NCBI GenBank assembly: GCA_003141525.1
Contig: PLML01000241.1
Coordinates: forward strand, 7,591 to 40,656
Source: Bacteroidales bacterium
GTDB lineage: Bacteria > Bacteroidota > Bacteroidia > Bacteroidales > VadinHA17
Length of the DNA: 33,066 bases
Direction: 5' to 3'
In this document: in pieces, positions 3,992 to 18,828 of the stretch
Numbering within the stretch: the first letter of the stretch is position 1
How the letters are laid out: the number at the start of each line of letters is the position of its first letter
Notes under the pieces: generated by a model
What the model was told of the DNA's origin: nothing
Seen by the model: only the letters and a program-made list of their open reading frames with translations
The model's database searches: none
Made by a program: the position numbers and the translations under genes

Positions 3992-5890
3992 TCAAATATT
4001 TGCCAGCGCTTTTATTGAGTTGATATGGCTGCCATTATTTATTTTTATCGATTTCCCTACTAAAGCTTCAGCCACAATCTCAGAAATATCAGCAACTCTT
4101 GTTGCTGTAACAGAAGAGAAAGTCTTTTTACAAAGAGGACAAGCAGTAGCAAGAATATCGGGATTATTTTTGGTAAGCTCATTGGCAGCATCGAGAGCTA
4201 TTTTCTTTTTATCAGTGGAGCTTATTTTCATGTTAGCCAGACTTCCTCCGCAACAAAGCGAATTTCCATCTTCAAAATTGCTTCTCTCAAGCCGGGAAAC
4301 ATACCCAAGAACCTCCTTTGGTTCATCATAAACGCCTGATCCTCTTCCCAGATCACATGGAGAATGATACACAACCTTTTTATGCAGAAAATTCATTTTC
4401 ACTGATCCGTCATCTATCAGTCTCTTGATAAATTGTGTGTGATGAAGGACTTCCACATCAAGATAATAACTCTCCTTAAACACTTTATAACATATGGGAC
4501 ATGATGTGACAAGCGTGTGGGCGCCTGATTTCCATATCATCTGCGAATTAAAATTAATAAGCTCCCTTGCTTCCTTATCCTGCCCAGCAAGCATTAACGG
4601 ACGTCCGCAACAAACACCTCCCTGCTCGTCAATAAAATTGTATTTCACTTCAGAAGCATCAAGAATTTTTATCATGGAATTCTTAATGGCAGGAGTCAGG
4701 TGAGACATGCAACCTGCAAAATACAATATGTCAGCCTTTCCATGATCGGTTTCCTGAAGAAAATTATAATTTGAAGATCCATTAGTTTTTTCTGAAATAT
4801 TAGTCTGCCGGCTCCTGAAATAACCTTTATAAATATTTCTGAAATCATTTTCAGTTTCATCTCCCCTTCGCTGGATCATCCTGATTTGAGATAGTTCTAT
4901 TCCCACAGGACATTTCTGATCGCACCTGCCACACATAAGACAGTTATGAGCGATTTCAGAAACGTCATTGTTATTTCGAATAGCTTTCATAAGGTAAGCT
5001 GACTGAATATTGGTAATCCCGGCTGAAAAATTAAGCTGGCATGAATCAAGGCAGATTCCACATGAAGAGCAGGAGTAAGTCTGAACCTCTGAATAAGTAC
5101 CAGCCTGATCGCCCGTTTTTATTCCGGAATTTCTCATGAAAATAAGGAATAATTCTGTGGGAATGTGCATATATCTTGTAATCGGAAGAAGAATGAAAAA
5201 AGTTCCCAATGAAATTGAATAAAGCCACCAGAAAGGATATGCCATCTGTTGTGCCGGAAGAAATGTTGCAAGCCAGGCTCCAAGTGATCCCGTAAGAAAA
5301 CTGCCTGTACCATAAGCACCACAGGTGAAGCTTTCTGCCAGGAGACGGCTGGGGAAAATTAGCCATAAAGAAGTAAGTGCTATTTTATCGATGATTTTCA
5401 GACGGGTTGTCTTCTTCATCCCTACAATTTTCGAATAGATCCTTTTTGCAACAGCCAGGAACAGGCCTGATAGTATGAATGCAAGTATGAGATCCATTAA
5501 AAATCCATAAGCTGACTCAAAACTTGTCCTGCCGTGATTGGGATTGAAAAACCTGAAAAAGATAGCTTTATATGGAGCATTCAGGTGTTTAGCACTAAAA
5601 ATATCAGCTTCAATTGTACCAAATAATATAAGTAAAAACCAGCCAAATGCCAGACTCATGTGCATATAACCCAGACGGAAGTTTGTTTTAAGTATCTTCC
5701 TGTGTATCAGACTTTCCATGAATATCTCTTTAAGGCTCAGTCCAAAAGCAATACCAAAAAACCCGCGTTGCAGCCTCAGCTTATCAGGTTTCGACAGGTC
5801 ACGAAACCATATTACGCTTCTCGTAACAACGTAGATGAGAATAAAGTACAATCCAATATTAAATGGTATTATGAAAGGATCAAATTTCAT
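3992..5890 (-). CDS. Membrane-anchored Hdr-like FeS protein (heme-b-like membrane domain + 2x4Fe-4S + two CCG domains)
   Basis: This 632-residue protein has about five or six hydrophobic segments in residues 5-255, with possible heme ligands H77 and H242. Two 4Fe-4S motifs follow (C274/277/280/284 and C317/320/323/327). Two complete CCG domains end it: C394-X32-CC427/428-X35-C464xxC467 and C512-X33-CC546/547-X36-C584xxC587. These spacings match the non-cubane 4Fe-4S site of HdrB/HdrD. The layout resembles HdrE-HdrD, DsrM-DsrK and EtfAB:menaquinone oxidoreductase (EMO) proteins, so electron exchange with the quinone pool at the inner membrane is likely. An upstream in-frame ATG at 5980 would overlap the previous gene by about 100 bp. 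I chose the ATG at 5890, which gives an 11-bp overlap typical of translational coupling. It is the last gene of the five-gene Hdr-like operon. Confidence 0.88.
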   Translation of the reverse strand: MKFDPFIIPFNIGLYFILIYVVTRSVIWFRDLSKPDKLRLQRGFFGIAFGLSLKEIFMESLIHRKILKTNFRLGYMHMSLAFGWFLLILFGTIEADIFSAKHLNAPYKAIFFRFFNPNHGRTSFESAYGFLMDLILAFILSGLFLAVAKRIYSKIVGMKKTTRLKIIDKIALTSLWLIFPSRLLAESFTCGAYGTGSFLTGSLGAWLATFLPAQQMAYPFWWLYSISLGTFFILLPITRYMHIPTELFLIFMRNSGIKTGDQAGTYSEVQTYSCSSCGICLDSCQLNFSAGITNIQSAYLMKAIRNNNDVSEIAHNCLMCGRCDQKCPVGIELSQIRMIQRRGDETENDFRNIYKGYFRSRQTNISEKTNGSSNYNFLQETDHGKADILYFAGCMSHLTPAIKNSMIKILDASEVKYNFIDEQGGVCCGRPLMLAGQDKEARELINFNSQMIWKSGAHTLVTSCPICYKVFKESYYLDVEVLHHTQFIKRLIDDGSVKMNFLHKKVVYHSPCDLGRGSGVYDEPKEVLGYVSRLERSNFEDGNSLCCGGSLANMKISSTDKKKIALDAANELTKNNPDILATACPLCKKTFSSVTATRVADISEIVAEALVGKSIKINNGSHINSIKALANI

Positions 5891-6239
5891 AATTGTCTGA
5901 TTTTTGAAAGGCTTTGATTGCAAGAACCACAATATTTCTCGTATTGACTCCACGAGGACAAACCAGCGTACACTTACCACAGAGCATACATTTTTTTAAA
6001 TTCTGCCGCACCTGGTCGTTTTCACCACGTTTAATAAGAATATTAAGTTCCCGGAGGCTAAAATCTGTAAAACTGGCTGTTGTGCATGTTGCCGAACACC
6101 CGCCGCATTCAATACAGAGTCTGAAGCTGGGTTCCTTCTCAAAAATGTAGGAGGCTACCCCTCTGTTATTGGAATCGTAGTCGATTTGACGCTCTTTTGA
6201 TATAGTATAGCCGAATTTATCCATATCCTTATTTGCCAT
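5880..6239 (-). CDS. HdrC-like 4Fe-4S ferredoxin subunit (second HdrC of the operon)
   Basis: This 119-residue soluble protein has two classical 4Fe-4S motifs, C42xxC45xxC48xxxC52 and C84xxC87xxC90xxxC94. The second is followed by PRG, as in HdrC proteins. HdrC subunits carry electrons between the flavin subunit HdrA and a CCG subunit. Here the neighbours are the HdrA-like protein (start overlaps its end by 11 bp) and the membrane CCG protein (11-bp overlap at the other end), which implies fixed stoichiometry. It lacks the helical C-terminal extension of the first HdrC-like protein in this operon. By position it corresponds to sHdrC2 of sHdr operons. Confidence 0.87.
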   Translation of the reverse strand: MANKDMDKFGYTISKERQIDYDSNNRGVASYIFEKEPSFRLCIECGGCSATCTTASFTDFSLRELNILIKRGENDQVRQNLKKCMLCGKCTLVCPRGVNTRNIVVLAIKAFQKSDNYEI

Positions 6240-7254
6240 CTTTCAGATAATCAATTACCTCTACAACAGCTGCACGGGCATGGGAAATTGTTTCCGTAAT
6301 ATTCATTGGCGCCGTACATGTTCCAGCGAAGAATACTCCTTCAATATTGCTTTTGTTGCTGCCAAAATGATTATCAGCAGCAGCAAAAAATCTATTTTCA
6401 CCTGTATTAAGACCTCCTAATCCGGCAATTTTTTCCCCGCCTTCCGACATTTCCATTCCTGCCATAAGCACAAGCATATCAAGTTTCATCTTTAGCGGTC
6501 TGCCAGCAAGTGTATCTTCGACTTTAATTAAAAGTTTATTTTCAATCGTCTCACTTGCTTCTGACACCTTGCCTCTGATAAAGCTTACTCCCCATTTTTC
6601 CTGGGCTTCACGATAAAGCTCTTCATAAAAAGCGCCACCCATTCTCATATCCATATAAAAGCAAAAAACTTTTGATTCCGGAAGATATTCCCTAAGCTCG
6701 ACTGCCTGTTTAACGGCAGTTACACAACATAACTTGGAACAATAAAAATTGCCAACCTTTTCATCACGAGATCCAACACAATGTACTATCCCTATCGTGT
6801 CCGGGACAGATCCATTAGCCAACGTAATCTTACCTGTCCGGAACATCTCCTCCAGATCAGCAGAAGTAATAACGTTATCGTAAATACCATAACCGTACTC
6901 TTCTTTCCTGGCACTCTTAAATAGATCAAATCCAGTCGCAACAATAACTGCATCAGCAGTCAGTTCTCTTCCTTCATTTGTAGTAATAGAAAAATGACCT
7001 TTGTTCCTGTTAAACCTTTCTATTGTTGTATTAGTTAGTAGTATAATTCTTTGATTATGAGTCATTCCGTCGAGGTACTCCTTTACTTCAATACTATTCC
7101 TTCTGTCTGGAAAAAGCCTGTGCCAGTTATTCAGATGCCCTCCGGTTTTGGATTCTTTTTCTATGAGGCTGACCTCAATTCCTGCTCTTGACAACTGACC
7201 TGCAACTTCAAGGCCTGCCACCCCACCTCCTATTACCACAACATGCTTGCTCAT
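6229..7254 (-). CDS. Short HdrA-like FAD protein
   Basis: At 341 residues this is about half the size of methanogen HdrA (about 650 residues) and close to the short HdrA of sHdr complexes. It has an N-terminal dinucleotide fold with GGGVAGLE (from residue 9), a GGHLNNW segment near 38-44, ATGFD near 106-110, and a conserved Cys patch at C159 (HCVGSRD) and C172/C176/C177 (YCSKLCC), as in HdrA. A late GVFFAGTC segment closes the FAD fold. It likely binds FAD and a 4Fe-4S cluster and acts as the electron hub between the HdrC/HdrB pair before it and the HdrC/membrane protein after it. Six bases separate it from the HdrB-like gene. No extra ferredoxin domains are present, unlike full-length HdrA or QmoB. 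Confidence 0.88.
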   Translation of the reverse strand: MSKHVVVIGGGVAGLEVAGQLSRAGIEVSLIEKESKTGGHLNNWHRLFPDRRNSIEVKEYLDGMTHNQRIILLTNTTIERFNRNKGHFSITTNEGRELTADAVIVATGFDLFKSARKEEYGYGIYDNVITSADLEEMFRTGKITLANGSVPDTIGIVHCVGSRDEKVGNFYCSKLCCVTAVKQAVELREYLPESKVFCFYMDMRMGGAFYEELYREAQEKWGVSFIRGKVSEASETIENKLLIKVEDTLAGRPLKMKLDMLVLMAGMEMSEGGEKIAGLGGLNTGENRFFAAADNHFGSNKSNIEGVFFAGTCTAPMNITETISHARAAVVEVIDYLKDGK

Positions 7255-7260
7255 TTAAAA

Positions 7261-8322
7261 TCAGACATTTATTAAATTATGTTTTTCTGAGTATGCAGGA
7301 AGTATATTAAGTTTATATTTGTCTTCAGGGGCATATTCTATTCCTATCTTATCAAGAACTGGTTCACAATCTGTCTGATGCATCTGAAGACCTAAATCCC
7401 ATGGATCATAACCAAGAACCAGACCTGCAACCTCTTCATATGTAAAAACAGGGATTCCTTCTCCGTTCTGACCATATCTTTTGCCCTCCATCTCATTTAT
7501 AACATACTGCCATCTGTCGAGAAACATCGGGCAACCCGGACAATTTGTTATTATCATATCGGGCTTGAACGGCTTCATAGATTCGAATTTTTCTTTTGAA
7601 CAGGCTATAGAGAAACCCCTGTTTGCCTGTACAAGATATTGTCTGAAGCCAAATCCGCAACAGTGCCTTCTTTCAGGATAATCAATTATCTGCCCGCCCC
7701 ATTCTTCAATCATGCCGGTAAGAACATATGGATATTCTGCCCCACCAATTCCCCTGGAAGGGAACATCTTAGCGTAATGACATCCGATATGATCAACAAC
7801 TTTCAGAGGTTCTCCCGTGTTTTTATTAATAAGTTTATATCTAGCTTTTGCGCCAATCTCCTTCCTGAATTTAAAGATCACATCGCTTGCATGAGCAAGG
7901 TTTTTTGGTATTTTGAATTCCCTTCCGGTTGCTTTTTTCAATTGTTTTCTCACTTTTTTCTCAACCTCGGGAAAATGATGCCAGGTGTCCAGTATTTCTG
8001 TGTATAATCCGAAAGAGGTTATGCACGATGGCAAGAGATTCTCATACCCTGCTTCTGTCATTAACGCAAACTGACGGGCAACAACCGTCATTGTTGTTTC
8101 AACAGGAACTATATCACCATGATAACCAATTCCGGTGCAGGTTGTATGACAGGGATGTTCATATACATCCTTGTTAAGCTCTTCGCGCATTATTTTAAGG
8201 AACGCCGTTTCTGATCCGGGAAAGAAATTCTGTCTTACACAGCTTCTTACATAATAATAATTATTGTCAGCTATCTCCTTCTGATAATCATTCCAAACAG
8301 CTTTCTTCCCTTTTATTATCAT
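7261..8322 (-). CDS. HdrB-like CCG protein (sHdrB1-like)
   Basis: This 353-residue protein has one complete C-terminal CCG domain, C181-X39-CC221/222-X38-C261xxC264, able to hold a non-cubane 4Fe-4S cluster. The N-terminal repeat is altered: it shows PCHTTCTGIGYHGD (C58, C62) and LPSC100 rather than a CCG motif. In heterodisulfide reductases HdrB is where the disulfide is cleaved; in sHdr systems a persulfide on a carrier protein is the proposed substrate. It lies 12 bp after the HdrC-like gene and 6 bp before the HdrA-like gene, so the C-B-A order is clear. Assignment to the sHdrB1 branch rests on my memory of the family and on gene order. Confidence 0.85.
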   Translation of the reverse strand: MIIKGKKAVWNDYQKEIADNNYYYVRSCVRQNFFPGSETAFLKIMREELNKDVYEHPCHTTCTGIGYHGDIVPVETTMTVVARQFALMTEAGYENLLPSCITSFGLYTEILDTWHHFPEVEKKVRKQLKKATGREFKIPKNLAHASDVIFKFRKEIGAKARYKLINKNTGEPLKVVDHIGCHYAKMFPSRGIGGAEYPYVLTGMIEEWGGQIIDYPERRHCCGFGFRQYLVQANRGFSIACSKEKFESMKPFKPDMIITNCPGCPMFLDRWQYVINEMEGKRYGQNGEGIPVFTYEEVAGLVLGYDPWDLGLQMHQTDCEPVLDKIGIEYAPEDKYKLNILPAYSEKHNLINV

Positions 8323-8334
8323 CGTGTGAAAATA

Positions 8335-9042
8335 TTATCTTGTGTGACGTCCATTGTTAGTTTTATAGATATGCCGGAAGTATTCATTTTCAATACCTTC
8401 ATCCAGTTGCATATTTAGCTCTACTGCTTTTTTCCTTGAAAATTCTTCAATATTTTCAAATCTTTTCATGCCGCCGGTTACCTTAAAAATCTCCCTGATT
8501 TCATCCATTGCCTCTTCCGGAATTCTCCTGAGTATCCCCGGGCCATCACCCTGGTAATTTGCACCCATTTTTTTAAAAAGGTCTCTCCAGTTATCCTGAA
8601 TCCAGTCCCAGACTGGTCCCTGTTCGGGATGCATTGTTGTACCAACTCCTTCAAGATAAAGACAATAACCGTACGTTAGTATCCAATGACCAACTATCCT
8701 TTTAATGACAAGCTGTTGTCTTCCTTTTTCTGATTCTGTAAAAAACCCAAGATCCTGTGAAAGCGATCGCAATGCCATGATTATCAATCCGGGAGCATTC
8801 CCACGCGGACAACGGGTTTTGCACGACATGCATTCTCCGCAGTACCAGATCGTTTCAGACTTTAAAAGGTCAGTTATTTTATCGTCATCCTTTGTTTGAA
8901 CTTCAACAACAATTTTCCTGGGATCGTAATTATAAAACTCTGCTGCCGGACAGATAGCTGTACAAACTCCGCAATTCATACAGGCATTCAGTCCTTCTTC
9001 AAACCTTACATCTTCCAATAACAGATCGTACAGTTTTCCCAT
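8335..9042 (-). CDS. HdrC-like 4Fe-4S protein with helical C-terminal domain
   Basis: This is the first gene of the Hdr-like operon, 235 residues long. Two 4Fe-4S motifs are visible, C21xxC24xxC27xxxC31 (CMNCGVCTAICP) and C68xxC71xxC74xxxC78 (CGECMSCKTRCP). The remaining 150 residues are soluble, charged and mostly helical, with no membrane segment. The length and position match HdrC1 of sHdr clusters. Its role would be to carry electrons between the HdrB- and HdrA-like partners. The start is supported by an exact TACCTTTG -7 box about 40 bp upstream, and no good alternative start is available. Confidence 0.86.
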   Translation of the reverse strand: MGKLYDLLLEDVRFEEGLNACMNCGVCTAICPAAEFYNYDPRKIVVEVQTKDDDKITDLLKSETIWYCGECMSCKTRCPRGNAPGLIIMALRSLSQDLGFFTESEKGRQQLVIKRIVGHWILTYGYCLYLEGVGTTMHPEQGPVWDWIQDNWRDLFKKMGANYQGDGPGILRRIPEEAMDEIREIFKVTGGMKRFENIEEFSRKKAVELNMQLDEGIENEYFRHIYKTNNGRHTR

Positions 9043-11348: not shown

Positions 11349-12581
11349 ATGAAAAAACTTTTGATTCTGGGCGCCGGGACAGCTGGAACGATAATGGCCA
11401 ATAAGATGCAAAAAAAGCTTCCAGTCAACGAATGGAGCGTAACAGTTGTAGAAAAGGAAATAAATCATTTTTACCAGCCCGGTTTTTTGTTTATCCCTTT
11501 TGGTTATTACCAGAAAAAAGATATCCTCAAACCAAGCCTTAAATTTTTCCCGAGAGGAGTTCAAGTAATAAACACTGAAATTGAAAAGATTGATCCTTCA
11601 CATAATAATATAACTCTTATTAATGGCCTTGAGATAGCGTATGACATCCTTATTATTGCCACAGGAACAAGGATTAGTCCTGAGGATACGCCGGGTTTAA
11701 AAGGAGAGTTATGGCAGAAAAACATATTTGATTTTTATACTATTGATGGATCTGAAGCTCTGGCAGAGTTTTTCAAGACCTGGCCTGGAGGAAACCTTGT
11801 AATCAATGTAGCCGACAACCCTATCAAATGCCCTGTCGCTCCTCTGGAATTCGCCTTTCTTGCCGATTATTATTTTACCCGGAAGGGGATGCGCAACAAG
11901 GTTAATATAACTTACGTCACACCATTGTCAGGCGCTTTTACAAAACCAAAAGCATCCAGGATGCTGGGATCACTTCTTGAAAGAAAAAACATAAACCTGG
12001 TGAGTGATTTTTTTATTGGAGAGGTTGATAATGCCAATAAAAAAATACTCGATTTTGGCGGAAGAGAAGTTCCTTTCGATTGTCTTATTTCAGTACCGCT
12101 TCATTCCGGTGATCCCGTTATTTCAAAGAGCGGACTGGGCGATGAGTTCGGATTTGTAAAAGCTGATAAGAATACTCTTCAGTCGGCATTGTTCAAAAAT
12201 ATCTTTGTTATCGGTGATGCCGGAAATTTCCCCTCTTCAAAAGCAGGATCTGTTGCACACTTCCAGGCAGATGTATTGGAGAAGAACATCGTTAATTATA
12301 TAAACAATGAACCATTTTCAGAATCTTTCGATGGGCACTCTAATTGCTATATCGAGACAGGTTTCGGCAAGGGTATCCTTATAGATTTTAATTATGCTAC
12401 CGAGCCTCTCCCCGGATTATATCCATTACCCGTCGTTGGTCCATTCTCACTATTAAAGGAGTCAAAGTTAAATCATCTTGGAAAGCTATTATTTAAATGG
12501 ATTTACTGGAATATTCTGCTAAAAGCAAGAAAACTTCCTGTAACCAATTACATGTCGATGGTCGGGAAAAAAATGGAATAA
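11349..12581 (+). CDS. Sulfide:quinone oxidoreductase-like flavoprotein
   Basis: This 410-residue protein has an N-terminal FAD fold (LGAGTAGTIMANKM), a central ATGTRISPED segment and a C-terminal IGDAG motif. SQR oxidises sulfide to zero-valent sulfur or polysulfide and reduces quinone at the membrane surface. Two cysteines align with the essential SQR pair: C161 in NPIKCPVAPLEF and C333 in SNCYIETGFGK. The third Cys seen in some SQRs (near residue 128) is absent. The C-terminal 60 residues are amphipathic and hydrophobic (LGKLLFKWIYWNILL), consistent with membrane association. It is the first gene of an operon with TusE/DsrC and DsrE2 genes, which supports a sulfur role. The alternative would be a type II NADH dehydrogenase-like enzyme, but the Cys pair argues against that. 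Confidence 0.85.
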   Translation: MKKLLILGAGTAGTIMANKMQKKLPVNEWSVTVVEKEINHFYQPGFLFIPFGYYQKKDILKPSLKFFPRGVQVINTEIEKIDPSHNNITLINGLEIAYDILIIATGTRISPEDTPGLKGELWQKNIFDFYTIDGSEALAEFFKTWPGGNLVINVADNPIKCPVAPLEFAFLADYYFTRKGMRNKVNITYVTPLSGAFTKPKASRMLGSLLERKNINLVSDFFIGEVDNANKKILDFGGREVPFDCLISVPLHSGDPVISKSGLGDEFGFVKADKNTLQSALFKNIFVIGDAGNFPSSKAGSVAHFQADVLEKNIVNYINNEPFSESFDGHSNCYIETGFGKGILIDFNYATEPLPGLYPLPVVGPFSLLKESKLNHLGKLLFKWIYWNILLKARKLPVTNYMSMVGKKME

Positions 12582-12606
12582 TTATTCAATTAAATGATAT
12601 GAATTC

Positions 12607-12654
12607 ATAACTTAATAACTTATCAACTTATAAACTTATCAAACTAATAACTTA
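12607..12654 (+). repeat. Degenerate 8-bp tandem repeat, six copies
   Basis: The spacer between the SQR-like and TusE/DsrC genes is built of six 8-bp units of the form ATAACTTA: three exact copies and the variants TCAACTTA, TAAACTTA and TCAAACTA. The strict 8-bp phase shows it arose by tandem duplication. Confidence 0.75.
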
Positions 12655-12665
12655 ATTTCTAAACT

Positions 12666-12977
12666 ATGGCACAGAAAACTTATGCAGGTGTAACAGTTGA
12701 TGTAAACGAAGAGGGCTATTTTACAAATCCCTCTCAATGGACTAAAGAGATTGCAGTTGAAATTGCTAAAGAAGAAGGCATTATCCTTACAGGACAGCAT
12801 TTTGCAATAATGGAATTTCTTCGCAACAGATTTAACGGAGGTGAAGCTTTATCTATAAGAAGCATTAATCACTCGGGAGTAATTGATGTTAAAACATTCT
12901 ACCAGCTTTTTTCTGGTGCACCTCTGAAAAAAGCTACAAAAATAGCGGGGATACCAAAACCAGCAAGTTGCGTTTAA
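12666..12977 (+). CDS. TusE/DsrC-family sulfur carrier with a single C-terminal cysteine
   Basis: This 103-residue protein has the family hallmarks: an early GYFTNPSQW segment, IILTGQHFAIMEFLR in the middle, and the flexible C-terminal arm AGIPKPASCV with the penultimate C102 (CysA). The second arm cysteine of true dissimilatory DsrC (CysB, about 11 residues earlier) is replaced by T91, so it cannot form the intramolecular disulfide or trisulfide loop and is TusE-like in chemistry. It most likely carries a persulfide. It sits 84 bp after the SQR-like gene and 21 bp before the DsrE2-like gene. No TusBCD or MnmA gene is nearby, so a role in tRNA thiolation is not supported by context. Confidence 0.92.
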   Translation: MAQKTYAGVTVDVNEEGYFTNPSQWTKEIAVEIAKEEGIILTGQHFAIMEFLRNRFNGGEALSIRSINHSGVIDVKTFYQLFSGAPLKKATKIAGIPKPASCV

Positions 12978-12998
12978 ACTTTTATAAAACTTAGTCTT

Positions 12999-13496
12999 AT
13001 GGAACAAAAATTTCCAATAAAAAAAGTAAGTCTCATTTGTGCCAAAGGCTCAATTGAGGATGTCTATGCTACCCTTATATTGGGAAATGGGGCAGTAATG
13101 GAAGGACTTGAAGCAAACCTTTTTTTTACCTTCTTTGGTATGGATGCAATAACAAAAAACAGGATGGATAAACTGCATACAGGAGTTGTGGGCAACCCGG
13201 CACTACGCCTTCCCGGAGGGATGAGAATGCCGACACTTTTAGGTATTATTCCGGGAATGGAAGCTTTTACTTCATGGATGATGAAGGGCCAAATGGAAAA
13301 ACTTGATATTCCTCCTGTGAGTGAATTTCTTGATCTTATTACAGCAGGAGGAGGTAAGATATATGCCTGTAAGACTGCTGTGGATATGTTTAAGTTAAAA
13401 AAAGAAGATCTTAGTGACCATGTCAGTCGGATCCTGACTGTTGGGGAGTTTTATGAACTTGCAGGTGGCGAAGGTTCCCAGATAATTTTTACATAA
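12999..13496 (+). CDS. DsrE2-like (DsrE/F/H superfamily) sulfur-transfer protein
   Basis: This 165-residue protein has the DsrE fold pattern: VSLICAKGSIEDVYATLILGNGA near the N-terminus and LDLITAGGGKIYACKTAVDMF near the end. Its two cysteines are C14 and C124. C124, in the IYAC segment before a helix, is the position used for persulfide binding in DsrE proteins. The hydrophobic GMEAFTSWMMKG region (about 87-97) fits DsrE2-type proteins, some of which are membrane-associated. DsrE2 proteins often accompany sHdr and sulfur-oxidation genes and pass sulfane sulfur between carriers. It is the last gene before a strong terminator. Confidence 0.85.
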   Translation: MEQKFPIKKVSLICAKGSIEDVYATLILGNGAVMEGLEANLFFTFFGMDAITKNRMDKLHTGVVGNPALRLPGGMRMPTLLGIIPGMEAFTSWMMKGQMEKLDIPPVSEFLDLITAGGGKIYACKTAVDMFKLKKEDLSDHVSRILTVGEFYELAGGEGSQIIFT

Positions 13497-13525
13497 AAAA
13501 TTCTTTTCCTTTATAATAAATAAGA

Positions 13526-13554
13526 AGAGACGTTGAATTCAGCGTCTCTTTTTT
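13526..13554 (+). terminator. Intrinsic terminator of the SQR-TusE-DsrE2 operon
   Basis: A 24-nt near-perfect palindrome (arms AGAGACG and CGTCTCT plus an inner GAATTC, with one G-T pair) is followed at once by a run of six T. It lies 30 bp after the DsrE2-like stop codon. Confidence 0.88.
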
Positions 13555-13570
13555 CACAACGGAAAGTGAT

Positions 13571-13578
13571 TACCTTTG
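13571..13578 (+). promoter_or_regulatory. -7 box TACCTTTG before the desulfurase-like gene
   Basis: An exact TAnnTTTG match lies 17 bp after the terminator and 49 bp before the ATG at 13627. It indicates separate transcription of the PLP enzyme gene. It is identical to the -7 box of the Hdr-like operon. Confidence 0.55.
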
Positions 13579-13626
13579 TCATACATAATCTTTAGTATTT
13601 CTTCTGTTCAAAATTAGTTATTAATT

Positions 13627-15132
13627 ATGTCTGATCTTGAAATATATTTTGATCAATACCGCAGGAATATTATTGGAATTGATGCAGAAATAACAACACC
13701 CTTTGGATCCAGGAAGCTTATTTACGCCGACTGGATAGCGAGTGGCAGACTGTACAGACCGATCGAAAACAGGATTACTGAAGAGATTGGTCCTATGGTA
13801 GGAAATACTCATTCAGAATCAACATCTACCGGGAAGGCAATGACTGACGCCTATCACCTTGCTCAGAAAATAGTGAAGCACCATGTGAATGCCAGTGAAA
13901 ATGATATTTTGATCTTTACAGGCACAGGGATGACTTCCGCAATTTCAAAGCTCCAGCGACTTCTTGGATTAAAGGTACCCGAACAGGCTATTCATTTCTG
14001 CGCATATGCTCATGGAAATTATAACAACTGTAAAGATATCCCGAATGACAAGCGTCCTGTTGTTTTTTTAACACATACCGAGCATCACTCAAATCACACC
14101 TCCTGGTTCGAAACGCTTGCTGAAGTTGTTGTTCTGGAGCCTTCTTCTGATCTTAAAGCCGACCCTGACACTCTGCGAAAAGAGATTGTTAAATATAAAG
14201 ACCGCCCATTACTTATTGGTTCTTTTTCAGCTTGTTCAAATGTGACAGGCTATTTTCCTCCTTATCATGAACTGGCTCAGATAATGCACGAGCATAACGG
14301 GTACTGCTTTGTAGATTTTGCAGCATCTGCTCCTTATGTAGATATAGATATGCATCCTGCTGATAAAATGCAGCAGCTCGATGCCATCTTTTTTTCCCCG
14401 CACAAGTTCCTTGGGGGGCCAGGCAGTTCAGGAGTTCTGATTTTCAATAAAGATCTCTACAAAAATAATATCCCCGACAACCCTGGCGGAGGAACAGTGA
14501 AATGGACAAACAGGTGGGGAGGTTATAGATATATAACTGATATAGAGGTCAAGGAAGATGGAGGCACTCCCGGATTTCTGCAGGGGATCAAAACTGCCCT
14601 GGCTATCACATTGAAAGAAAATATGGGCACTTTAAGCATCCGGAAGCGTGAAAATGAGCTGATTGACATAGCTTTCAATGAATTATCAACAATAAAAGGG
14701 CTTCATATCCTTGCTCCTGAAATAAAAGAGAGACTCGGAGTTTTCTCTTTTTATATTGACAATATACATCACAACCTGGTTACCACTCTTCTTAACGACC
14801 ATTTTGGGATACAGGTAAGAGGGGGATGTTCCTGTGCCGGAACTTATGGTCATTTTCTTCTGAATGTTGACTTTAAAATGTCTAAAGAGATCACAGATAA
14901 AATAGATGCCGGAGACCTGTCAATGAAACCGGGCTGGATAAGATTATCCCTCCATCCGACTATGACCAATGATGAATTATTATATATTACTGACGCTATA
15001 AGGCAGACAGTTGAAAAAGCGGATGAATGGAAGAAAGATTACTGTTACGACAGCCATACTAATGAATTCTCTCACTGTAAATTCCCTGAACAAAACGATT
15101 CAGGTTATACAAACTGGTTTAAATTACCCTGA
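13627..15132 (+). CDS. Large class V aminotransferase, cysteine-desulfurase-like
   Basis: This 501-residue PLP enzyme belongs to the fold-type I class V family. K260 in FFSPHKFLGGPGSSG is the Schiff-base lysine, and THTEHHSNHTSW matches the region contacting PLP in SufS/CsdA. A Cys-containing loop RGGCSCAGTYG (C401 and C403) is where group II desulfurases keep the Cys that accepts sulfur. SufS is about 405 residues; this protein has about 95 more, mostly in the N-terminal third and a C-terminal tail rich in Cys, His and acidic residues after residue 470. It could release persulfide from cysteine to the neighbouring DsrE2 and TusE proteins, or act on another amino acid. No SufE, SufU or IscU gene is adjacent. 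Confidence 0.8.
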   Translation: MSDLEIYFDQYRRNIIGIDAEITTPFGSRKLIYADWIASGRLYRPIENRITEEIGPMVGNTHSESTSTGKAMTDAYHLAQKIVKHHVNASENDILIFTGTGMTSAISKLQRLLGLKVPEQAIHFCAYAHGNYNNCKDIPNDKRPVVFLTHTEHHSNHTSWFETLAEVVVLEPSSDLKADPDTLRKEIVKYKDRPLLIGSFSACSNVTGYFPPYHELAQIMHEHNGYCFVDFAASAPYVDIDMHPADKMQQLDAIFFSPHKFLGGPGSSGVLIFNKDLYKNNIPDNPGGGTVKWTNRWGGYRYITDIEVKEDGGTPGFLQGIKTALAITLKENMGTLSIRKRENELIDIAFNELSTIKGLHILAPEIKERLGVFSFYIDNIHHNLVTTLLNDHFGIQVRGGCSCAGTYGHFLLNVDFKMSKEITDKIDAGDLSMKPGWIRLSLHPTMTNDELLYITDAIRQTVEKADEWKKDYCYDSHTNEFSHCKFPEQNDSGYTNWFKLP

Positions 15133-15201
15133 TTAAACATATTTGAACCAATACTGTTCTATCCTAAGGATAATATAAATATTAAAACAGGAGATCAGAG
15201 A

Positions 15202-16860
15202 ATGAGTTATATCGATATTATATCCTCGGATGTGTTAATAATCGGAGGTGGTCCATCCGGATTAGCCGCTTCAATTCGTCTTGCTGACATCTTAAAACAA
15301 AGAGGCCAGAACAAAAGAATATTACTCATTGAAAAAGGTCGTTCAATAGGCAGCCATATATTATCAGGTGCAGTAATCAAACCATCTGTTTTTAAAGAAT
15401 TATTGCCTGAAGTGGATTTCTCAGAGATCCCATTCAATGCTAAAGTAACTAATGATAAAACGATATTGCTCACAGAAAAAAGGGCCATAGCTCTGCCATT
15501 TCACCTGCCGTACATGAGTAATAGAGGCAATTACACCGCCTCATTAGGTCAGATATGCAGGTATTTAGCATTAAAAGCAGAGGAGAAAGGTGTAGAGATC
15601 TATACAGGTTTTGCCGTAGATGAGATTTTGTACAAAGATGGGAAAGTAATAGGTGCCAAAACCAAAGATACTGGTCTGGATCACCATGGACATCAGTTGG
15701 AAAATTTTCAGGCGGGCACCCGGATTGAAGCTAAAATTACCATTTTTGCAGAAGGAACACGTGGCAGTCTGACCAAAATGCTTATTAAAAAATTTAACCT
15801 GGATAAGGACAGAAATGAACAGGTTTACTCCTTAGGCTGCAAGGAATTATGGACAGTCCCGCAAGGTAATATTGAGGCAGGACAGATTTTTCATACAATG
15901 GGTTATCCTCTCGATAATGATGAGTTTGGCGGAGGCTTCATCTATGGATTAAAAGATAATAAAGTAGCTATAGGTCTTGTTGTCGGACTTGACTTCAAAG
16001 ATCCAACCTTTGATGTTCATGATGCATTCCAGATATGGAAAACCACCTCATTTGTATCCAGGATTTTAAAAGGTGGAAAACTGGTGGAATATGGCGCTAA
16101 AACCCTTCCTGAAGGAGGTTATTATGCAATACCTAAATTGTTTGTCGACAATGCTATAATCATAGGGGACAGCGCAGGTTTGGTTGCTATGCCTGCCTTA
16201 AAAGGTATACATTTAGCGATCAGATCCGGAATGTTAGCCGCACAAACCGCAGCCAATGCATTGTCACACAACGACACTTCTGAAAAAAGCCTTGAACAAT
16301 ATCAAAACCTGCTGAATAACAGTTCTATCCACAAAGAAATGTATGCTGTCCGCAATTTCAGACAGGGATTTGCAAAAGGATTAATTGCCGGAGGATTGCA
16401 TTTTGGGACTCAATTAATAACAGGAGGAGCTGGTTTCTTTGGCAGACTACGATCTGATGCCGACTATAAGACAACACTTAAATTGAGCGAACTAAAAAAG
16501 AAGCCATTTAAAGAACGGTTCAAAGGTAAACTGGAGTTCGACAAAGTCCTGACATTCGATAAAGCAACCGATGTTTACTACTCAGGAGTATATCATGATG
16601 AGCAACAAGTTGTGCATCTTCAGATTAACGACATGGAGAAATTTAATTCCATTAACATTGAACAATATGGTGCACCTGAGCAATTTTTTTGTTCGTCTGA
16701 GGTATACGAGCTTCATACCAGCAAAACCGGTCAGAAAGAGCTTAGAATTCATGCTGAAAATTGTATGCATTGCAAAACCTGTGACATAAAATCTCCAGGA
16801 GAAGCTATTACTTGGGTTGTACCAAATGGCGGTAATGGTCCGGATTTTCAAAATATGTAA
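15202..16860 (+). CDS. Electron-transfer flavoprotein:quinone oxidoreductase (FixC-FixX-type fusion)
   Basis: ETF-QO takes electrons from reduced ETF and reduces quinone at the membrane. The 552-residue protein opens with an FAD fold (G15GGPSGLAAS) and ends with a single 4Fe-4S domain: C497, then C521, C524 and C527 in NCMHCKTCDIKSPG, followed by the family ending WVVPNGGNGPDF. FAD-contact segments GDSAGLVAMPALKGIH and YSLGCKELW are visible. A hydrophobic glycine-rich stretch (FAKGLIAGGLHFGTQLITGGAGF) probably meets the membrane. An AGGAG sequence lies upstream of the ATG, and a TATCC-TAA-GGATA palindrome at 15160-15172. The fused EtfBA gene follows after 21 bp, so the two are an operon and functional partners. 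Confidence 0.94.
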   Translation: MSYIDIISSDVLIIGGGPSGLAASIRLADILKQRGQNKRILLIEKGRSIGSHILSGAVIKPSVFKELLPEVDFSEIPFNAKVTNDKTILLTEKRAIALPFHLPYMSNRGNYTASLGQICRYLALKAEEKGVEIYTGFAVDEILYKDGKVIGAKTKDTGLDHHGHQLENFQAGTRIEAKITIFAEGTRGSLTKMLIKKFNLDKDRNEQVYSLGCKELWTVPQGNIEAGQIFHTMGYPLDNDEFGGGFIYGLKDNKVAIGLVVGLDFKDPTFDVHDAFQIWKTTSFVSRILKGGKLVEYGAKTLPEGGYYAIPKLFVDNAIIIGDSAGLVAMPALKGIHLAIRSGMLAAQTAANALSHNDTSEKSLEQYQNLLNNSSIHKEMYAVRNFRQGFAKGLIAGGLHFGTQLITGGAGFFGRLRSDADYKTTLKLSELKKKPFKERFKGKLEFDKVLTFDKATDVYYSGVYHDEQQVVHLQINDMEKFNSINIEQYGAPEQFFCSSEVYELHTSKTGQKELRIHAENCMHCKTCDIKSPGEAITWVVPNGGNGPDFQNM

Positions 16861-16881
16861 CAATGAATTGATAATGCAATT

Positions 16882-18828
16882 ATGGCTCTGACGATAATAA
16901 GTTTAATAAAACAAGTTCCGCTACCAAGCGAAATGAGAATGGGAGAAGATGGTTTAATGGACCGGACAAAAGCAAAATCAATAATTAATATTGATTGCCA
17001 GTATGGTCTTGAAGCCGGATTGCAGCTCAGAAAACAACATCCCGATGCCAGATTAGTTGTCTGCTCGATGGGTCCGAAATCATTTGAAACATCTCTAAGA
17101 ACAGCAATTTCCATGGGCTATGACGAAGCTTATCTGTTATCCGATCGGAAGCTGGGCGGAAGTGATACTTATGCTACCGGCCTGGCAATTTCTAAAATGC
17201 TAAATCACTTAGGTTTTACAAAAGATTCTAAAGATCCTTTTATTATTTTAGCCGGCCGGCAAACCAGTGATGGCGATACTGCACACGTTCCATCACAGGT
17301 AGCCGAAAAGATCGGAATTCCTCAGGCCACTTTTGTAGAGAGTTTAAAAGCTGACGGCTCTGGAAATGTAATTGCAAAAAGGATTATAGAGGGTGGATAT
17401 CAAATTTTGAAATTGCCCATTCCCTGTGTTATATCATTGACTCCAACCGGAATTCCTCCCCGTAAGCCTTCATTAAGTGGAGCCATCAAAGCCCGCACCC
17501 TTGAAATTACAACATTTGGAATTGACAATATTGGTTTGGGAACCGAGAAAATTGGTATTAACGGTTCCCCGACTATTGTGGTAAAAGTAGTTAATATTGT
17601 AAGTGAACGTCCTCCTGTAACAATGTCGGAAGGTCATAATGAGGCTTCATTAGTTGATAGCTTTATCGTTAACTTTAAAAAAGGTGGAAATGTTCTGGAG
17701 AAGAAGGATAAAGCAGCCAAAAAAGAAATAGAACGTCCGCATTTCCCTGAAAAAGACTTCAGGAATGGCGCAAGAGGAATTATCACCTGGGCTGAGGTGA
17801 CCAACGGTAAGATATCCAGACCATCAATTGAACTGTTAACTCCGGCCAGAAACCTGGCTGCCCAGTTAGGTAACGACACTAAAGTAATGACATTAATTAT
17901 TGGAAAAAATGTTCAACATTTGGCACAAACTCTTATCGAACATGGTTCAGATGAGGTTATACTTGTTGAAAATGATAAGCTTGAAGAATATCTTGTTCTT
18001 CCATTTTCATCAATTTTTGCTCAGGTGATTAAGGAAAGAAAACCGGAAATTGCTCTTTTTGCTGCAACAACATCAGGACGGGAATTAGCTCCCCGGATAG
18101 GCATGAAAACCAATAGCGGAGTAACAGCAGACTGCACCGGGCTTGAAATTGGAGAATATATAGATAAAAAAGAAAAAGTGATTTATACTCCAATTCTTGA
18201 ATCGCGACGTCCAACTTATGGTGAAAGCAAGTTGGCTACTATTCTTGGTTTTGTTTGTCCGCAAATTTCAACAGCCAGGGCAGGTACATTTGAAGTTCCA
18301 AAACGTGTTGAGGGACGACAAGGTATTGTTTCAAGGTTCAACCCTGTTTTAAATGATGAAGATTTTGTTGTTGAAATTCTGAAAACGGTAAGAGGTGAAG
18401 GTGGATTACAGAATCTTTTCGATGCTGACATTGTAATTTCAGGTGGCAGAGGTACAACAAGCGATAGTTTAGGGCTGATAAAAGCACTTGCCGAAGCATT
18501 AAAAAGTCAGGGAATAAATGCTGAATGGTCCTGTAGCCGTCCGGTTGTTGACGAAGGTGTTTCAGAATATGCCAGACAAATCGGACAAACAGGTAAAACC
18601 ATTCGTCCTAAAGTATATATTGCAGTTGGTGTTTCAGGTGCAATTCAGCATATTGCGGGTATGAAAGAATCTGAAACGATAATTGCCATAGACCATAATC
18701 CTAAAGCACACATCTTCCATTATGCAGATTTTGGAATTGTGGGTGAATATCAAGACCTTTTGCCAGAATTAATTGAACGCGTTAAAACCGGATTTAAATT
18801 CGGTATTGAAGCCAGGAAAAATCAGTAA
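16882..18828 (+). CDS. Fused electron-transfer flavoprotein, EtfB-EtfA in one chain
   Basis: Residues 1 to about 260 are an EtfB (beta) domain, including AGRQTSDGDTAHVPSQ with D130-G-D-T-A at the second nucleotide site. A charged linker (about 265-290, KKDKAAKKEIERP) leads to an EtfA (alpha) domain to residue 648. The EtfA domain has the FAD-binding segment GQTGKTIRPKVYIAVGVSG from residue 568 and IIAIDHNPKAHIF. Separate EtfB and EtfA proteins are about 250-260 and 320-350 residues, so both are complete. The protein carries electrons from a flavin dehydrogenase to the ETF-QO encoded just upstream. No acyl-CoA dehydrogenase gene is present here, so the donor is unknown. The DGDTA segment resembles FixA and bifurcating EtfB proteins, which leaves FixABCX-like chemistry possible. 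Confidence 0.93.
   Translation: MALTIISLIKQVPLPSEMRMGEDGLMDRTKAKSIINIDCQYGLEAGLQLRKQHPDARLVVCSMGPKSFETSLRTAISMGYDEAYLLSDRKLGGSDTYATGLAISKMLNHLGFTKDSKDPFIILAGRQTSDGDTAHVPSQVAEKIGIPQATFVESLKADGSGNVIAKRIIEGGYQILKLPIPCVISLTPTGIPPRKPSLSGAIKARTLEITTFGIDNIGLGTEKIGINGSPTIVVKVVNIVSERPPVTMSEGHNEASLVDSFIVNFKKGGNVLEKKDKAAKKEIERPHFPEKDFRNGARGIITWAEVTNGKISRPSIELLTPARNLAAQLGNDTKVMTLIIGKNVQHLAQTLIEHGSDEVILVENDKLEEYLVLPFSSIFAQVIKERKPEIALFAATTSGRELAPRIGMKTNSGVTADCTGLEIGEYIDKKEKVIYTPILESRRPTYGESKLATILGFVCPQISTARAGTFEVPKRVEGRQGIVSRFNPVLNDEDFVVEILKTVRGEGGLQNLFDADIVISGGRGTTSDSLGLIKALAEALKSQGINAEWSCSRPVVDEGVSEYARQIGQTGKTIRPKVYIAVGVSGAIQHIAGMKESETIIAIDHNPKAHIFHYADFGIVGEYQDLLPELIERVKTGFKFGIEARKNQ

Follow-up and report, generated by a model that had tools for sequence, protein, structure and literature searches.

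An operon of heterodisulfide reductase (Hdr)-like genes in a Bacteroidales genome raises the question of what a membrane-anchored Hdr complex might do in these bacteria. The operon lies on a stretch of 33,066 nucleotides (assembly GCA_003141525.1, contig PLML01000241.1, positions 7,591 to 40,656), which in its whole length is referred to below as the window. Its five genes, hdrC1-hdrB-hdrA-hdrC2-hdrDm, fill window positions 3992-9042 on the minus strand, and all five open reading frames (ORFs) were confirmed. The original prediction, made from the sequence, had likened them to the sHdr complex for sulfane-sulfur oxidation and had considered a distinct quinone-coupled type. The reading toward which we lean is that the complex oxidizes sulfane sulfur to sulfite, delivers the electrons to menaquinone and, in lineages in which it is linked to lipid genes, feeds the synthesis of sulfonolipids.

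The operon, its distribution and its relation to known Hdr types

The five genes were found to be as tightly packed as had been proposed, with intergenic gaps of 12, 6 and -11 bp from hdrC1 to hdrC2, and the survey of gene order across Bacteroidota that the original prediction had suggested indicated that the arrangement is widespread. Among 38 Bacteroidales loci (L079-L116, analyzed by tblastn), 34 kept the order C1-B-A-C2-Dm, which is conservation beyond chance. The exceptions were L103, with the order C1-C2-Dm-B-A, L101 and L115, with B-A only, and L089, in which C1 and B were not in the stretch. With a cruder ORF caller, 68 of 119 loci showed the complete five-gene order, and the small hdrC2 was the one call missing in another 17. 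The HdrDm gene was on a separate contig in three genomes (G296, G414 and G511); since it comes after VOC-HdrC1-HdrC2 in G414, the operon there is split, not lost. Two genes, hdrB of L081 (9089-10151) and hdrDm of L116 (9474-11185), were each found in two reading frames, due to either assembly error or decay.

Pfam analysis of the five proteins identified 4Fe-4S, CCG and flavin folds, and the best NCBIfam matches were models for HdrA, HdrB and HdrC, every one below its cut-off. The eight motif cysteines of HdrC1 and C127 were invariant in 104 rows, and HdrA, at 341 amino acids (aa), leaves no room for the additional domains of bifurcating HdrA. The fifth protein ends at 3992 as predicted, while its start is probably the ATG at 5890, as in homologues, rather than the GTG at 5980, which would give 662 aa.

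The membrane-anchored Hdr operon is widespread in Bacteroidota, including gut and wetland members. Short HdrA was found in 78 of the 247 genomes compared from the order (E ≤ 8.6e-80, 41-63% identity excluding the own copy), the call being made by reading of the match table for an open frame shorter than 410 aa. At the level of the family, 117 genomes gave 85 with a match at E 1e-50, and 79 of these, which were better than 1e-80, were taken to have short HdrA. Among 296 genomes of the phylum (E ≤ 1e-20), full-length short HdrA was found in the window's own genome and, distantly (36-38%), in two more, which carry type II sHdr clusters; the remaining matches had longer open frames, save one partial frame in G129. 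A contig scan found a relative encoded in 584 of 595 stretches, and the best 80 of at least 584 relatives listed were all Bacteroidota by title, with named loci including Alistipes, Butyricimonas, Cryptobacteroides, Prolixibacteraceae and Lentimicrobiaceae. These locus counts are not counts of independent genomes, because the sets share genomes (for example, L080/L141, L088/L153 and L092/L202).

Occurrence beyond Bacteroidota is known here from a plasmid collection, in which tblastn identified a C1-B1-A-C2-B2 cluster with a flavoprotein gene on a plasmid of Picosynechococcus sp. PCC 7003 (NZ_CP016476.1; L132 13113-18853), the nearest relative found outside the phylum. Its C1, B1 and A proteins are 47%, 40% and 43% identical to those of the window, and its HdrA falls into the same clade, whereas it has a soluble 290-aa B2 with ten cluster cysteines and a 203-aa C2 in place of the short C2 and HdrDm.

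Phylogenetic analysis placed both HdrA and HdrB beside sHdr and away from the Qmo and methanogen proteins on the rows compared, as the original prediction had expected. The few sHdr references comprised 6tjr as the single type I HdrA, an HdrB1 from a plasmid and two type II clusters. In the HdrA tree (37 rows, midpoint root), 20 Bacteroidota rows and the cyanobacterial row formed one clade (support 99/99), the three sHdrA rows (6tjr and two of type II) formed a separate clade (100/99), and these two clades were split from 13 Qmo/HdrA rows with support of 88/89, which is under the tool's star. The HdrB tree (30 rows) separated 25 rows, consisting of Bacteroidota, the paralogue in the window's own genome, sHdrB1-type and cyanobacterial B1 proteins, from five canonical rows with full support; its inner branches were long and left the cyanobacterial B1 unplaced between Bacteroidota and sHdrB1, and the main split alone was used. 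Membership in Qmo or methanogen HdrABC was rejected by the two trees. QmoABC and bifurcating HdrABC share the HdrA, HdrB and HdrC superfamilies with the window operon but differ in that their HdrA lies elsewhere in the tree, and the window operon has neither a long HdrA nor an MvhD-like gene.

The N-terminal half of HdrB has positions for five cluster cysteines. Two of these, Cys 41 and Cys 81 (5odc numbering), are present in each of the five canonical rows, but other residues stand at both positions in every one of the 20 Bacteroidota rows, the three sHdrB1-type rows, the own paralogue and the cyanobacterial B1. In the C-terminal half, the three sHdrB1-type rows have Asp at position 231, where the remaining 27 rows have Cys; the loss of 41, 81 and 231 may therefore define an sHdrB1 pattern, as judged from three rows. 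These alignments suggest that the complex shares an altered HdrB active site with sHdr, yet is not nested in sHdr on the rows compared.

The lipoate-binding protein LbpA, whose gene the original prediction had not seen in the operon, was searched for by tblastn with two queries in 123 sequences (the window, 118 Bacteroidota loci, L132, L077, L078 and L247, some of the loci being short contigs), and was not found in the window, the 118 Bacteroidota loci or L132. Matches were found only in L077, L078 and a plasmid of Acidithiobacillus ferrooxidans (L247). In 19 hdr-bearing genomes, 17 had matches of 28-39%, the ordinary level of GcvH-like proteins, and G313 and G514 had none. According to the available text of PMC6067878, LbpA is "inevitably associated" with Hdr-like genes of sulfur oxidation, and the operon thus lacks a defining feature of sHdr. 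Because HdrA forms a separate clade and LbpA was not found, membership in sHdr was rejected and the complex was considered a sister of sHdr. The kinship and the membrane anchor that had been predicted therefore stand, whereas its description as a form of sHdr does not.

The sHdr system of type I (C1B1A-H-C2B2 with LbpA, as in Hyphomicrobium denitrificans) shares with the window operon the C1-B-A-C2 order and gene sizes, including the short HdrA, on which the original prediction agrees, as well as the loss of two cysteines at the N-terminal HdrB site and an adjoining HdrA clade. The window operon differs from it in having no LbpA, no hypothetical gene between A and C2 and no Asp231, in its separate HdrA clade, and in a membrane HdrD-like protein that replaces B2. 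Type II (C1B1A-H-B3 with etfAB) shares the C1-B1-A core and a membrane EMO-like CCG protein in the cluster, but has a soluble fused C2B2, electron transfer flavoprotein (ETF), a separate EMO and LbpA, and its core proteins are 25-37% identical; L077 and L078 are such clusters, also with an EMO-like gene and LbpA. Neither type, as defined in the available text of PMC11582611, has the five-gene make-up of the window.

The membrane-anchored fifth subunit of the original prediction was borne out by modeling. An AlphaFold2 model of HdrDm (31 sequences; mean pLDDT 85.3, pTM 0.81) has five long helices in the membrane part, and the best Foldseek match was EtfD of M. smegmatis (9ojn), which is linked to menaquinone, over the full length with E 1.1e-20, TMq 0.66 and a root-mean-square deviation (rmsd) of 8.8 Å. 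A LutA-LutB model followed with E 6e-7, and then HdrB chains, none better than E 2e-5; a comparison of HdrDm with PHROGs gave no match. EtfD/EMO and HdrDm share a five-helix membrane domain, two 4Fe-4S clusters and two CCG domains. In 100 rows of HdrDm, the invariant residues were His 93, 107 and 272 of the membrane part (662-aa numbering), eight ferredoxin cysteines and ten CCG cysteines, and the spacing of His 107-272 resembles that of residues 78-241 in EtfD. In the available text of PMC13083937, EtfD binds a b heme through His78 and His241, with a putative menaquinone close by; in its CCG clusters, His583 is the closing residue and Thr539 stands in place of a Cys. HdrDm differs from EtfD in that it retains both CC pairs, has Cys458 and Ile496 at the places of Thr539 and the ligand His583, and is encoded in an hdrCBA operon. 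HdrDm thus looks like EtfD in its modeled fold and like HdrD/HdrB in its reactive sites, and the fold and the conserved histidines suggest that it may bind heme b and menaquinone and transfer electrons to the latter.

Sulfonolipid-type genes beside the operon and the exchange with cysH

Chosen sulfur and lipid genes were surveyed as neighbours at the 118 short-HdrA loci, distances being measured between the ends of tblastn matches. A cysteate synthase gene (TIGR03844) follows hdrDm co-directionally, 11-90 bp off, in 12 of the 118 loci; the protein of L171 scored 461 bits against a cut-off of 325. A gene for an acyltransferase, named CFAT here, is co-directional in seven loci and below the serine-palmitoyltransferase cut-off, and a threonine-synthase-like (ThrS-like) gene is co-directional in four, below the cut-offs of both TIGR03844 and NF006050 (proteins of L103 and L113 were scanned). 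In total, a lipid-type gene, always co-directional, accompanies the operon in 17 of the 118 loci, the unselected count being 15 of 116, because L252 and L253 were fetched for adjacency already known from gene tables.

Besides the plain succession of hdrDm and cysteate synthase, five arrangements were found: VOC-CFAT-SDR-[hdr]-cysteate synthase (L171, Alistipes sp., and L195), CFAT-ThrS-like-[hdr]-SDR-VOC (L099), CFAT-ThrS-like-SDR-VOC-[hdr] (L103 and L253), CFAT-ThrS-like-[hdr] (L113) and [hdr]-CFAT (L252). The nearest lipid gene was mostly within 102 bp, and 727 bp away in L253. The substrates of cysteate synthase are phosphoserine and sulfite. Since the enzyme consumes sulfite, the hdr operon stands where a source of sulfite is needed. 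The path from phosphoserine to sulfobacin B is described in the available text of PMC11211663 as proceeding via Cys, CFAT and ketocapnine reductase.

The ThrS-like gene was present in 46 of the 247 genomes, never alongside TIGR03844, and its product is a candidate for a second kind of cysteate synthase. ThrS-like pyridoxal phosphate enzymes were also observed in clusters of sulfonolipid type in L103 (15450-16670), L258 (4441-5763) and L263 (14393-15721).

An acyltransferase homologue was present in 72 of the 78 hdr genomes and in 102 of the 169 others (p 7.6e-8). If hdr supplies sulfite, then sulfonolipid makers without hdr should hold another source, most simply CysH, and this prediction was tested. 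Among the 174 acyltransferase-positive genomes, CysH was found in 49 of 72 with hdr and in 88 of 102 without (odds ratio (OR) 0.34, p 0.005, a value inflated by relatedness as judged from the per-family resampling described below); among the 66 genomes with cysteate synthase, it was found in 15 of 27 with hdr and in 32 of 39 without (OR 0.27, p 0.03). In seven genomes from five families (G303, G517, G336, G375, G402, G435 and G478), picked by hand from the match tables, no more than 10 kb separates hdr from CFAT or cysteate synthase, and CysH was absent in six of them, compared with 19 of the 71 other hdr genomes (p 0.004).

Conversely, cysH lies within 5 kb of the acyltransferase gene in seven genomes (G439, G533, G363, G379, G351, G356 and G460), six of which have no short HdrA; each of these stretches contains a ThrS-like gene, and most contain an SDR or VOC gene. 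The order in L263 is VOC-cysH-cysD-cysN-transporter-like-cysQ-ThrS-like, the four cys genes being identified by family models; among the six hdr-less genomes, one has cysD, cysN and cysQ in addition to cysH at this place. In no genome did the matches listed put hdrA as well as cysH less than 10 kb from the acyltransferase gene. The same lipid module thus appears to pair either with sulfate-to-sulfite enzymes or with hdr, and our interpretation is that one source of sulfite has been exchanged for another, non-homologous one. Genes of sulfate activation and reduction, together with a transporter-like gene, were seen inside the acyltransferase/VOC/ThrS-like cluster in both L263 (4136-15721) and L264 (4562-14551); in L264, cysH was identified by family search and the rest by eye.

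Proposed function and alternatives

By analogy with sHdr and EtfD, from which the formation of the complex, its substrate, the direction of electron flow, the heme and the product are proposed, carrier-bound sulfane sulfur would reach HdrB, where the non-cubane site of the C-terminal half, which is intact, and the N-terminal site, which is altered as in sHdrB1, would oxidize it with water and release sulfite. Four electrons would pass from HdrC1 to the flavin adenine dinucleotide of HdrA, then to HdrC2 and through the CCG sites, 4Fe-4S clusters and b-type heme of HdrDm to menaquinone. In lineages with cysteate synthase, or with the acyltransferase presumed to start capnine synthesis, the sulfite would be converted to cysteate for sulfonolipids. 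In the organism of the window, the sulfane sulfur could plausibly come from sulfide:quinone reductase (SQR) and the DsrC-like and DsrE2-like proteins encoded nearby, and sulfide disposal or energy metabolism may be served by the product as well. This proposal draws on gene content and its conservation, phylogeny, cysteine patterns, the predicted fold, the operon links and the exchange with cysH.

Several observations weigh against this proposal. The CFAT label is a tentative one of our own, given by relation to the serine-palmitoyltransferase model, and the fold match between HdrDm and EtfD has an rmsd as large as 8.8 Å over the whole length. None of the sought sulfur or lipid neighbours was found in 96 of the 118 loci. 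Cysteate synthase was present in just 27 of the 78 hdr genomes (p 0.06), and TIGR03844 was rejected as a universal partner; either cysteate synthase or the ThrS-like gene was present in 40 of 78, against 72 of 169 others (p 0.22). Over all 247 genomes, hdr and CysH were not associated (53 of 78 and 103 of 169, p 0.32). For the comparison among acyltransferase-positive genomes, drawing one genome from each of 94 families gave a median OR between hdr and CysH of 0.36 and a median p of 0.065, with 43% of resamples below 0.05. One genome, G460, holds hdr plus a lipid cluster that contains cysH. The window's own genome has CysH and neither cysteate-synthase candidate, and its acyltransferase homologue (58%) is away from recognized sulfur genes; the homologues (55-59%) of G000, G358, G319 and G441 were seen by eye near recN-like and coaBC-like genes. 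The lipid link in the window's own organism is thus indirect. Lastly, no fixed sulfur carrier was found: DsrC was present in 34 of 78 hdr genomes and in 42 of 169 others (OR 2.3, p 0.005), and the carrier may therefore differ between lineages. DsrC was rejected as an obligatory partner, since it was not found in 44 of the 78.

A lesser possibility is that the complex carries out a respiratory or detoxifying oxidation to sulfite of the zero-valent sulfur made by SQR, mainly to dispose of sulfide or to feed the menaquinone pool, and that the lipid neighbours are incidental. Genes for type III SQR, DsrC-like and DsrE2-like proteins are beside the operon in both the window and L079, as are SQR and DsrC in L142, the terminal flavoprotein of the Picosynechococcus cluster has SQR III as its best match, although below the cut-off, and the enrichment of DsrC in hdr genomes points in the same direction. 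However, adjacency of SQR and DsrC beyond the window is limited to these two of the 118 loci, on the opposite strand, more than half of the hdr genomes gave no DsrC, and the exchange with cysH is left unexplained. It is distinctly unlikely that the complex is a disulfide reductase driven by menaquinol, or an oxidase of low-molecular thiols, without production of sulfite. HdrDm resembles HdrDE and keeps two CCG sites of catalytic type, with Cys458 and Ile496 where EtfD has Thr539 and His583 (PMC13083937, available text), and a methionine gamma-lyase gene adjoins the operon in 3 of the 118 loci; against this, the N-terminal site of HdrB is of the sHdrB1 type rather than canonical, the operon is linked to a user of sulfite, and a maker of sulfite takes the place of hdr in the same clusters. 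A role as an electron-transfer module for ETF and acyl-CoA oxidation, like EtfD/EMO and with HdrCBA as an extra input, would agree with EtfD being the best fold match of HdrDm and with the presence of an ETF:quinone oxidoreductase (ETF-QO)-like flavoprotein and a fused ETF 6-10 kb off in the window. This role appears highly improbable, however: HdrDm has no residues of the EtfD-type closed cluster, the same genome has EtfB, EtfA, a split EMO and acyl-CoA dehydrogenase at another locus (L120, by eye), the window's ETF and ETF-QO queries, run against the 38 Bacteroidales loci, found a match in L079 alone (ETF-QO), and a search with EtfA of L077 gave nothing beyond L134, L078, the window and L077 itself.

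The sulfonolipids of gut Alistipes and Odoribacter have been studied for their effects on host inflammation. There is an even chance, in our estimate, that an undescribed menaquinone-linked Hdr acts as the sulfite synthase for capnine and sulfobacin in Bacteroidales and replaces sulfite derived from CysH, that anaerobes of sulfidic and gut habitats thereby obtain sulfonates from sulfur at the level of sulfide, and that the ThrS-like protein is a second cysteate synthase. If sulfite supply by the complex is correct, machinery hitherto known from dissimilatory sulfur oxidation would have an assimilatory role, lipid chemistry would be tied to respiration, and a defined set of genes would be available for knock-out. 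A natural membrane-anchored variant is also an aid to understanding sulfur oxidation by sHdr complexes. The role of the complex in supplying sulfite for sulfonolipids is probably new: no literature joining sulfonolipids with heterodisulfide reductases was found in a search that mostly lay outside subscription journals, and the origin of the sulfonate sulfur is apparently unaddressed in the available text of PMC9304779 and PMC11211663, in which the words 'sulfite' and 'heterodisulfide' occur 0 times. The available text of PMC11129491 reports a complete set of heterodisulfide reductase genes in Black Sea isolates, the list including Labilibaculum and Ancylomarina, considers it as possible sulfide detoxification, and cites capnine lipids for these two genera.

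Genes of the window and further observations

The coordinates of the operon and of the sulfur genes recognized in the window are given in the table below.

Table. Features of the operon and neighbouring sulfur genes, in window coordinates
Feature	Position	Strand	Description
hdrC1	8335..9042	(-)	235 aa; two 4Fe-4S motifs (Pfam, NCBIfam)
hdrB	7261..8322	(-)	353 aa; complete CCG site in the C-terminal half, 3/5 Cys at the N-terminal site; one Pfam CCG domain
hdrA, short	6229..7254	(-)	341 aa; FAD/flavin fold and invariant four-Cys motif
hdrC2	5880..6239	(-)	119 aa; two 4Fe-4S motifs
hdrDm	3992..5890	(-)	632 aa from ATG; membrane domain, ferredoxin part with two 4Fe-4S motifs, then two CCG domains with complete motifs
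Type III sulfide:quinone reductase	11349..12581	(+)	NF049943, 611 bits vs cut-off 525
DsrC/TusE-like	12666..12977	(+)	103 aa; ends PKPASCV
DsrE2-like sulfur carrier candidate	12999..13496	(+)	165 aa; 97 bits, NF047629 cut-off 210 not reached

Genes for the type III SQR, the DsrC/TusE-like and DsrE2-like proteins, a class V aminotransferase and ETF-related proteins, left out of the original prediction, begin 2.3 kb from the operon on the opposite strand. They belong to a single run (11349-18828, plus strand) that extends from SQR III to the ETF-QO-like flavoprotein and a fused ETF beta-alpha protein. The family model of the SQR is named for a selenoprotein subtype, and there is no in-frame stop here. 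By the two-cysteine rule for DsrC, the C-terminus of the DsrC/TusE-like protein has the penultimate cysteine and a threonine at the second DsrC cysteine position. The DsrE2-like protein scored 87 bits with the Pfam DrsE_2 model, which is above the cut-off.

A second Hdr locus in the same genome (L118 1-19001, C15; by eye) encodes Qmo-like flavoproteins, a QmoC-like protein, HdrC and an HdrB paralogue that is 64% identical to the HdrB of the window. A Qmo-like set also precedes the five hdr genes in L093 and L182. In these two loci and in L186, a methionine gamma-lyase-like gene (11974-13155 in L093) follows hdrDm co-directionally, 81-102 bp from the last match. On the A. ferrooxidans plasmids (L247 3491-7194), an sHdrB1-type gene is accompanied by a GcvH/LbpA-like gene and hemerythrins; the same plasmids gave no match to HdrA. 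In about 12 of the Bacteroidota loci (for example, L091, L092, L094, L105 and L114), genes for a LuxR-type response regulator and a membrane histidine kinase were seen by eye shortly before hdrC1, and these may be a regulator pair for the operon.

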